From the NCBI GenBank assembly GCA_021324635.1, contig JAJPIS010000065.1:1-40349 (forward strand): 40,349 nt of DNA. Reading direction: 5' to 3'. Below are positions 37,875 to 40,349 of the stretch, one piece after another. The stretch comes from Gemmatimonadota bacterium (GTDB lineage Bacteria > Gemmatimonadota > Gemmatimonadetes > Gemmatimonadales > Gemmatimonadaceae). A program made the translations under genes and the position numbers. The notes under the pieces were generated by a model that was given only the letters and a program-made list of their open reading frames with translations, ran no database searches and was not told where the DNA came from. Position 1 is the stretch's first letter; every line of letters starts with the position of its first letter.

Positions 37875-38687
37875 CTACCCGGCCCGGAAGGGGCGGGAGC
37901 GTGCCTCGTAGTGGCGCCGCTCGGCCCCCAGCAGTCGGACGAACAGGGTCCGTAATCCCCGCCCCAGCACGCCACCCGGATTCCGCTGCCCCCGCACGGC
38001 CGGACGCAGTTCGCCCCGGAGCCAGCGCTCGACTTCGTCGAGGTCGTTGAGCGAGAGCATCTCGACATCGAGGACGGCATTGTAGTAGTAGCGGCCCCCG
38101 CGCCCCGGGGCGAGCGCGACCGGGTACGGCGCGGACACGGCCGCCGCGAGCGTCGAGAACTGGTCGAAATCGCCGATCACGGTCACGCTGTCGTCGTGAA
38201 GCCGGGCCGCGCGGAACCGCTTGTGAACGGGATCATAGCGCACGATCACGTCCCACTCCCGCCTCCCGTCGAGCGCGTTCAGGAAGCCGCCTGCGTGCCA
38301 GAGCTCGAGCCGAAAGTGGAGTCGGGCCGGGAACCCGTTCCTGAGGAGATCGCGTGTCTGCCCGTCCGTCAGGACATCCACGGCCCGGATCGTCGGCCCG
38401 CGGACGGCAGGCGGTGACGGCGGCGGGGCAGGGGCCGACAGCGCGGGGAGCCCGGCGGCGGAGGATGCGGCCGCGGCGGGGCCGGCGGCCGACGATCCCG
38501 AGCGGCCGGGCATCACGGGCGGCGAGGCGGCGGACGCGGTCACCGTCGGCGGCGGATCCGCGGGCGGGGGCAGATCGATGGCGAGGTGTGGCGTGCCCTG
38601 GGCGCCTGCCCGGCGCACGGGCGCGAGGCTCGCCGCGCTGACGACGCCGAGCATCGCACACGCTGCCATCAGGGACGCGGCCCGCAC
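37875..38687 (-). CDS. Exported DUF4390-like protein
   Basis: 270 residues from the GTG at 38687; the ATG at 38669 would lose the basic residue before the signal peptide (MRAASLMAACAMLGVVSAA, cleavage near RRAGAQ). A Pro/Ala/Ser-rich linker runs to about residue 100. The folded part holds LRNGFPARLHFRLELWHAGG, REWDVIVRYDPVHKRFRAARL and YYYNAVLDVEMLSLNDLDEVERWL, which I take as DUF4390-type. The protein is probably periplasmic and of unknown role. It starts two bases after the stop of the beta-barrel gene upstream, so both are very likely one operon, perhaps an outer-membrane protein and its periplasmic helper. Confidence 0.78.
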   Translation of the reverse strand: MRAASLMAACAMLGVVSAASLAPVRRAGAQGTPHLAIDLPPPADPPPTVTASAASPPVMPGRSGSSAAGPAAAASSAAGLPALSAPAPPPSPPAVRGPTIRAVDVLTDGQTRDLLRNGFPARLHFRLELWHAGGFLNALDGRREWDVIVRYDPVHKRFRAARLHDDSVTVIGDFDQFSTLAAAVSAPYPVALAPGRGGRYYYNAVLDVEMLSLNDLDEVERWLRGELRPAVRGQRNPGGVLGRGLRTLFVRLLGAERRHYEARSRPFRAG

Positions 38688-38689
38688 GG

Positions 38690-40213
38690 TCAGAACCGCT
38701 GCTGCAACCGAACGATGAATCGCGGTCCGCTATTGTCGGCCCACGACGAGAGCGCCTGGGCGACATAGAACCCGAACGGACCGAGCGTGATGCCGACGCC
38801 GGCATCGTTCAGAAAGGTCCCCAGCGGCGGCAGCGTGGCCGACGAGTACCGCACCCCCGGCGCCCGCCCCGGCCCCACGAGCCATCCTCGGCCGCTGTCG
38901 AGAAAGAGCACCCAGGACCCGTCGAGCGGCACACCGCGCACGAGATCCGCGAGTCCGATCCGCAAGTCGTGGCGAAACTCGATCTGGGCGAGCGCCACCC
39001 GATCGCACTGGGCCGGAATCCCCGGCGCGGCGAGCGGCGATGTCGAGCAGGTCAGGACATTCGCCCCGGGATCCGCGTCGCGGAAGTTGAAGCCGGGCAG
39101 CGTGCCCGCGCCGCCGACGGACAGGCGTTGCTCGAGCGGCAGGCGGTCGCCGCCCAGCCAGCCGCCGAGCACGAGGCGGACATTGAGCTGCTGCGCGGGG
39201 CCGATGCGGTTGTACCGCCGGCCATCGAAGAAGCCCCGCGCGTAGACGATGTTGGCGACGCCCGACGCCGGCACCGTCGGCGCGGTCCCATCGCTCCGCG
39301 GCCCGAAGTGCGTCACCGCGCCGGCGCCACGCTCGACGTCCACGGTCGCGTACCAGCCCACCCAGGGATCGAGCGCGCTGTTGCGCGTGTCGAGCGTGAA
39401 GTGCGCGCCGACGGTCTGGAAGGTGCCGTCGTCGAGCATCGGGTTGGGCCGCCAGGTCGCGGTGTTGCGGAACAGGGTGAAGGGGGTGCGGACAGGGCGC
39501 GTCGCCCAGCGCTCGTCGGCGTACGAGAGGCTCAGCGCGGCGCTGCCGCTCAGATCGAGCGACAGGTATCCGCTCGCGCCGTGTCGCCCGAAGTAGTCGC
39601 GATAGTCGCGGTGAAAGAAGAGCGTCGCGAGCCCGACCTCACCGTCCGACAGTTGCCAGCTCTCGACCGGATCGATCGAGTCGTACGCCCGAGCGCCGAC
39701 CGCGAGCGCGCGCCCGGCCCCGGTCGGAACGCTGACCTCGGCGTGGGCGCCGTAGCCGATGTGGTCCTCGTCCCACCGCAGCTTGTCGGAGATGCGCACC
39801 GTGCCGTAGGCGTCGGCGGAGACGCTGCCCCACGCAAAGCTGTGACGTGCGTACGGGCCGGCGTAGAGCGGCAGCCCGGCGACCCGGTTGTAGGTGTGGG
39901 CCGACGCGAGCGACAGCCCGATCGAGTTGGGATCGTGCGACCGCCGAAGCCACCGGAGCCACCGCGCCAACCCCTCGTCCTGCCCGGTATCCGGACGCGC
40001 GATCGGCACGGTGTCCCGGGGACCGCCCGCGCTGTCGTTCCCCGCCGCCGCCCATCCGCTGTCGGACGTCGGCACGGCTGGTCGCGGGCGCCCGGGCATC
40101 GTCGAGTCGCCCGCCTGCGCGCCGGCGCTGTCGGGCGCGAGTGCCCCCGCCGCGGCCAGACCGAGGGGTGCGGCGATGATCAACGCGAAGGCGATCCCCA
40201 GCCGCCGCATCCG
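38690..40213 (-). CDS. Outer-membrane beta-barrel protein, Omp85/surface-antigen-like, frame open upstream
   Basis: 507 residues if started at the ATG at 40213, which begins a good signal peptide (MRRLGIAFALIIAAPLGLAA, cleavage near SAGAQ). A Ser/Asp/Pro linker to about residue 70 is followed by many amphipathic strands with Tyr/Trp/Phe turns. The C-terminal third resembles the bacterial surface antigen/BamA barrel: LNVRLVLGGWLGGDRLPLEQ, SVGGAGTLPGFNFRD, LAQIEFRHDLRIGL, VLFLDSGRGW, AGVGITLGPFGFYVAQAL and the final FIVRLQQRF ending in aromatic Phe. No POTRA domains are present. The frame has no stop between this start and the window edge; the upstream codons encode a DNA-binding domain (listed separately), so the true start is uncertain. 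Confidence 0.8.
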   Translation of the reverse strand, partial: RMRRLGIAFALIIAAPLGLAAAGALAPDSAGAQAGDSTMPGRPRPAVPTSDSGWAAAGNDSAGGPRDTVPIARPDTGQDEGLARWLRWLRRSHDPNSIGLSLASAHTYNRVAGLPLYAGPYARHSFAWGSVSADAYGTVRISDKLRWDEDHIGYGAHAEVSVPTGAGRALAVGARAYDSIDPVESWQLSDGEVGLATLFFHRDYRDYFGRHGASGYLSLDLSGSAALSLSYADERWATRPVRTPFTLFRNTATWRPNPMLDDGTFQTVGAHFTLDTRNSALDPWVGWYATVDVERGAGAVTHFGPRSDGTAPTVPASGVANIVYARGFFDGRRYNRIGPAQQLNVRLVLGGWLGGDRLPLEQRLSVGGAGTLPGFNFRDADPGANVLTCSTSPLAAPGIPAQCDRVALAQIEFRHDLRIGLADLVRGVPLDGSWVLFLDSGRGWLVGPGRAPGVRYSSATLPPLGTFLNDAGVGITLGPFGFYVAQALSSWADNSGPRFIVRLQQRF

Positions 40214-40349
40214 CCGATACAGGTTGGGCCGATCGGTCTGGAGACGCCGTGCCGCTTCGGTCACGTTCCCGTCCGATTGGGCGAGCGCGCCCTGGATGAG
40301 CGTCCGCTCGTAGCTGTCCAGCGCATCGGCGAGCGGCGTCTCCGGGGCC
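40196..40349 (-). CDS. Fis-type HTH end of an NtrC-family regulator, reading in frame into the barrel gene
   Basis: Partial, entering from beyond the window. The visible 51 codons read PLADALDSYERTLIQGALAQ, then SDGNVTEAARRLQTDRPNLY and RRMRRLGI, the classical C-terminal HTH_8 (Fis) domain that ends sigma-54 activators such as NtrC. Such proteins normally stop one to a few residues after L-G-I/L. Here no stop follows: the frame runs straight on into the signal peptide and barrel. It is either a real fusion, a lost stop codon, an in-frame overlap with internal initiation at 40213, or a sequence error. The receiver and AAA+ domains would lie outside the window. Confidence 0.75.

Follow-up and report, generated by a model that had tools for sequence, protein, structure and literature searches.

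Members of the NtrYX family have been linked to the cell envelope in Rhodobacter (PMC7240162) and, as PlrSR, in Bordetella (PMC13001219). In Bordetella, a DUF4390 protein was identified by genetic evidence as a third component of the NtrYX system (PlrS/PlrR/PlrP), and DUF4390 was mapped within the Proteobacteria (PMC13001219). The QseE/QseG/QseF system of E. coli is a sigma-54-dependent NtrC-type system for envelope homeostasis, with the gene of an outer-membrane protein in its operon (PMC6075780). Transmembrane transcription regulators such as ToxR and CadC also exist in response-regulator versions (PMC10269533; the main text of this article mentions neither NtrC nor HTH_8), and the Omp85 superfamily includes a ‘noNterm’ type (PMC4104836).

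The window analyzed here (the whole stretch of DNA under study, 40,349 nucleotides from a Gemmatimonadota genome) contains a gene that is best explained as a genuine fusion in which an NtrX-like sigma-54 response regulator has been joined to a POTRA-less Omp85-type barrel, its operon neighbor elsewhere in the family. The system resembles NtrYX with DUF4390 in comprising an NtrC-type regulator, a membrane kinase and a neighboring secreted DUF4390-like protein, but the barrel gene is located between the regulator and the DUF4390-like gene and is fused to the former, and the equivalog scores remain below cut-off. E. coli QseG, unlike the fused gene, is a separate lipoprotein and neither a barrel nor fused. 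By analogy, an envelope-related role of the kinase-regulator-barrel-DUF4390 operon is likely. The fused protein would share with ToxR and CadC a cytoplasmic DNA-binding part, a single hydrophobic segment and a C-terminal part outside the cytoplasm; it differs in that the segment looks cleavable and abuts the recognition helix without a linker, and in that an outer-membrane barrel forms the outside part. The barrel has the 16-strand fold of Sam50, BamA and TamA and, as in the noNterm type, no recognizable POTRA; it differs in having a transcription factor at its N-terminus instead of POTRA or nothing. A polyprotein processed by signal peptidase is represented by FbcH (cytochrome b/c1) of Bradyrhizobium, in which one gene yields two proteins, the cut falling at an internal signal sequence. 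FbcH gives rise to two respiratory proteins of the membrane, while one of the products here would be a regulator. To our knowledge, no protein has been described in which a sigma-54 response regulator and an outer-membrane barrel are joined, and a limited search of the open-access literature found no precedent for fusions between response regulators and outer-membrane proteins.

The open frame runs on the minus strand from 40348 to 38690 and comprises 552 codons with zero stops in the window sequence. In the first-pass annotation, an HTH domain was described as continuing, with no intervening stop, into a signal peptide followed by a BamA-like (Omp85) barrel; the open frame as well as the profile and fold matches bear this out. 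The window represents an entire contig (C33 of genome G000), and its right end truncates the gene. The upstream half of the regulator, with receiver and sigma-54 AAA+ motifs in one frame, is located at the end of another contig of the same genome (C101:116-1387) and is 75% identical to the regulator of the congener G002. Homology with G002 suggests that C101 and C33 abut. The break sits in a GC-rich, repetitive linker (the end of C101 has 83% GC), and the nature of this linker would explain it; the contig of the congener G001 (C104) ends at nearly the same linker position. In the window genome, the linker between the AAA+ and HTH domains contains GC-rich tandem repeats (DARDARDARD, GGPHPGGPHP), and the assembly breaks there in two species (G000:C101, locus L073; G001:C104, locus L078).

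The complete gene is found in G002 (locus L046), where a fused frame of 962 codons on a single 177-kb contig encodes, in this order, a receiver, a sigma-54 AAA+ domain, a Fis-type HTH, a signal peptide and a 16-strand Omp85-type barrel. The expected receiver and AAA+ domains upstream in the same frame are thus present both on C101 and in the whole frame of G002. Further full-length fused frames measure 1074 (G032), 909 (G031 and G055) and 910 codons (G128), and in G009 the fusion is contained in an open frame of 1384 codons. The regulator halves of the two truncated fused genes (window and G001) were matched on C101 and C104, respectively. Among the fused species, contiguity of the assembly is highest in G032 and genus g30. 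The whole junction is open in eight species, the frame extends far beyond chance expectation, and a search for a junction stop in the related fused genomes found none. The regulator–signal peptide–barrel frame is confirmed as genuine rather than the product of a lost stop.

The regulator half begins in the window with the end of the AAA-HTH linker (40313-40348, minus strand), followed by the Fis-type HTH of an NtrC/NtrX-like sigma-54 activator (40199-40312, minus strand). This domain, recognized by profile match and conservation, matches PF02954 with an E-value of 1.2e-8 over residues 13-49 of the partial frame and ends with the recognition helix NLYRRMRRLG. In G002, PF00072 (2.9e-27), PF00158 (8.4e-69) and PF02954 (2.4e-9) are all found on one chain, and the AAA+ domain carries its lid; a receiver, a Sigma54_activat AAA+ domain and an HTH_8 domain on one chain place the protein in the NtrC-type class. 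Since the NtrX equivalog NF051870 scores 391.9 bits against a curated cut-off of 600 and the NtrC equivalog 436.6 bits against 558.6, we call the regulator NtrX-like and not NtrX. An rpoN gene is present in the window genome (Sigma54_DBD, 1.2e-63).

The receiver, Walker A, G[AS]FTGA and HTH motifs are intact in the fused regulators, with either GAFTGA or GSFTGA in every complete one. In the fused genes, dN/dS amounts to 0-0.25 for the HTH, 0.03 for the receiver plus AAA+ part and 0.10-0.33 for the barrel, and is mostly higher, up to about 1, for the signal peptide and linker, as would be predicted for a signal that is cleaved off. In the comparison of G031 with G055, the receiver plus AAA+ part shows a dN/dS of 0.03 and the HTH is unchanged in amino-acid sequence; within the window clade, the values are 0.06-0.25 for the HTH and 0.2-1.0 for the signal peptide and linker. 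The HTH of the fused regulators is under strong purifying selection, and its identity to the consensus of split genes (regulator and barrel encoded separately) falls within the range of the split genes themselves. Given the intact motifs, the low HTH dN/dS and this split-like identity, DNA binding appears to have been retained after the fusion.

Sequence, hydrophobicity and comparison with relatives place a predicted internal signal peptide at 40118-40210 (minus strand). Its n-region MRRLG is common to the HTH, and its h-region (IAFALIIAAPLGLAAAGALA) spans 40136-40195. It was proposed earlier that the same codons serve both domains, and RRMRRLG is indeed the end of the recognition helix as well as the sole basic n-region of the signal peptide. 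A probable signal peptidase I site, read by eye, lies between AGA and Q after position 40118. In the AlphaFold2 model, residues 29-69 form a single helix that extends across HTH and signal peptide, to which we give no weight as the confidence is only about 60. A linker rich in Pro, Ala and Asp follows (39947-40117, minus strand), modeled with low confidence.

The barrel (38690-39946, minus strand) ends with QQRF and a TGA stop codon (38692-38690). It matches PF01103 with an E-value of 0.0012 and 18.9 bits, which does not reach the cut-off of 24 bits, and the barrels of its relatives also remain below it (18.8-20.7 bits); it is therefore filed as Omp85-type by fold only. The AlphaFold2 model has 16 strands with a pLDDT mostly above 90 in the barrel. 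The best Foldseek matches are to BamA (1e-9), and VIA gives a Z-score of 22.2 to Sam50 and about 20-22 across the Sam50, BamA and TamA barrels, which are the nearest solved folds. Pfam finds no POTRA domain, and the stretch that connects the signal peptide to the barrel is short and of low confidence in the model, which is consistent with the noNterm type. In some proteins of the barrel family (L048, 2441-4303, minus strand; L053, 3150-4898, minus strand), the signal peptide is separated from the barrel by a bactofilin-like beta-repeat domain (PF04519, E-values of 5e-4 and 2e-3, both below cut-off), which is absent from the window clade and from genus g30. It would be unusual to find a bactofilin-like fold in an extracytoplasmic position.

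A family survey places this gene among its relatives. A match to the fused query was found in 172 of 179 family genomes, and the regulator is located directly upstream of the barrel in all 110 unique loci in which both genes are readable (window excluded). Seven of these are fused and 103 split; with the window, eight of 111 loci are fused, representing eight species of soil bacteria in four genera. These counts are family-wide, and the order-wide total is at least eight fused species. Long open barrel frames also occur in G104, G047, G160, G194, G108, G019, G200 and G056, which were rejected as fused since their regulator stop lies in another frame.

The join is identical in all fused genes, with NLYRRM(R/K)RLG, more precisely RLG[IVM], followed immediately by the h-region. 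Split regulators have a short polar tail beyond the RLG point (median 6 aa, 24% charged), and split barrels begin with a start and signal peptide of their own, which often overlap the regulator stop or lie close behind it; the fused genes have neither the polar tail nor the barrel's own start. By eye, the fused segments show an n-region, an h-region and a cleavage site of small residues and Gln. The segment is more hydrophobic in fused than in split genes (19-residue mean; medians of 2.18 versus 1.59, p = 7e-5), a comparison in which the p-value counts species, the independent events being only three, and to which the LGI residues of the HTH contribute automatically on the fused side. The fused segment thus seems longer and more signal-anchor-like than the split signal peptides, as would be expected if it must be recognized behind a domain of 470 residues.

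In the regulator and barrel trees, the fused species occupy three positions, namely the window genus with G009, G032 beside Roseisolibacter, and genus g30. The tree requires three changes, which are forced by well-supported branches. A single fused clade is rejected by the AU test (p = 2.9e-7), as is a common group of the window clade and g30 (p = 0.009), both on a quick tree and with a tested group that was named once the first tree had been seen. At least three independent origins of the fusion, all at the same codon, account best for this distribution. One gain and two losses could in principle also give three changes; three gains are the simplest reading, as many split lineages lie between the fused groups. 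The fusion has been kept across deep divergence (window and G001 are 71% identical over the alignment). The same-codon join in three groups represents a natural experiment in which a cytoplasmic DNA-binder and an outer-membrane protein, which should end in different cell compartments, are placed on one chain.

The fused gene is presumably translated as one chain, and with no stop in between the barrel would be carried on the chain of the regulator. We consider it an evenly balanced proposition that this chain is a polyprotein that enters the membrane N-in/C-out and is processed by signal peptidase. On leaving the ribosome, the hydrophobic segment would insert with RRMRRLG as positive flank, and the regulator would remain cytoplasmic as the barrel passes through SecYEG. 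Cleavage by signal peptidase I at the small-residue/Gln site and assembly of the barrel in the outer membrane by BAM would follow, so that each translation event would yield a single regulator and a single barrel. The signal peptide, once cut, would stay on the regulator as a membrane tail at its C-terminus. Since the final turn of the recognition helix, placed as in Fis, is where this tail starts, the regulator would need clipping or non-insertion for normal DNA binding. Such a tail is awkward for a DNA-binding protein and speaks for another route to free regulator.

The main rival is internal initiation, which we regard as rather unlikely. Here, a second ribosome start at the ATG within the HTH (40210; MRRLGIAFALIIAAPLGLAAAGAL...) would make an ordinary barrel preprotein, with the full-length fusion as a minor product or as regulator only. 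The codon in question, Met47 of the partial frame, occupies 40210-40208 on the minus strand, and not 40213 as first annotated. It is rightly placed in all eight fused species, and MRRLG with the h-region and the small-residue/Gln site reads as an orthodox signal peptide; moreover, g30 has a second ATG right at the join, and the split barrels that start a few bases from the regulator stop suggest translational coupling. However, the same Met occurs in 99 of 102 split genes and is hence not there for a barrel start, and this reading leaves a regulator without barrel unexplained, as no stop exists. No Shine-Dalgarno sequence was found at this ATG in fused or split genes, and RNA folding and GC content do not differ between them, with no accessible RNA structure at the codon, so that the earlier proposal of a start at this codon gains no positive support and the polyprotein is favored. 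In a GC-rich phylum such as this one, the Shine-Dalgarno result does not exclude initiation. A programmed frameshift that would end the regulator gains no support, as the out-of-frame stops behind the HTH lie at very different distances among species and show no shared pattern.

The fusion may also reflect neutral operon compaction, in which the regulator stop was deleted where the genes overlapped or nearly did so and the product is tolerated with no regulatory consequence. The adjacent, often overlapping or nearly touching genes of split relatives and the low number of fused loci (8/111) fit this account, which nevertheless seems improbable in view of three groups with an identical join, the persistence shown by the identity between window and G001, and the intact HTH; it accounts for the origin and not for how the product works. 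An assembly or sequencing artefact (a lost stop or a frameshift) has a negligible chance of being correct. It is true that the window breaks off inside the gene and that metagenome assemblies make up most of the relatives, but eight genomes from separate assemblies, with contigs up to 1.4 Mb, show no stop or frame change, and codon-level purifying selection acts on both sides of the join, which refutes an artefact for the relatives. The lost stop codon considered in the first-pass annotation is contradicted by the eight species and three origins.

The fusion may plausibly couple regulator and barrel output. The last residues of the recognition helix double as the first of the signal peptide, so that membrane insertion of the latter would mask the DNA-binding helix, and the regulator might be active only in the absence of barrel export, as upon saturation of Sec or BAM, or after clipping of its tail. 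Under this export-gated model, which strikes us as distinctly improbable, a single chain would report the state of outer-membrane protein export. A transcription factor gated by export of its own C-terminus would be new if true, and it is directly testable, as are the use and cleavage of internal signal sequences behind large folded domains in bacteria and the role in the cell envelope of the family-wide kinase-regulator-Omp85-DUF4390 operon in Gemmatimonadota.

The conserved gene order of this operon is kinase, regulator, barrel and DUF4390-like gene. The kinase is found upstream in G001, G002, G009, G032 and g30, and the DUF4390-like gene downstream in the fused loci. In the window, the latter is the next gene (37875-38687, minus strand), separated by a 2-nt gap and encoding a predicted secreted protein; it follows the barrel family-wide. 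Its orthologue in G002 matches PF14334 (DUF4390) with an E-value of 0.035, below cut-off, and a Gemmatimonadota DUF4390-like protein with an NtrX-like system may extend the range of DUF4390. The kinase immediately precedes the regulator in G001, G002 and G009, unlike in the window genome, in which a LysR-type gene (by eye) is located upstream of the regulator instead (G000:C101, L073, about 1450-2400). A kinase orthologue with 72% identity to the G002 kinase is encoded on another contig of the window genome (L225, G000:C82 1624-2934), adjoining type II secretion-like genes (by eye). The record CALQGY020000016.1 (L139) bears the title Candidatus Kuenenia stuttgartiensis, but its regulator-barrel pair is typical of Gemmatimonadaceae and falls with Gemmatimonas in the tree; it is probably a mislabelled or mixed bin.
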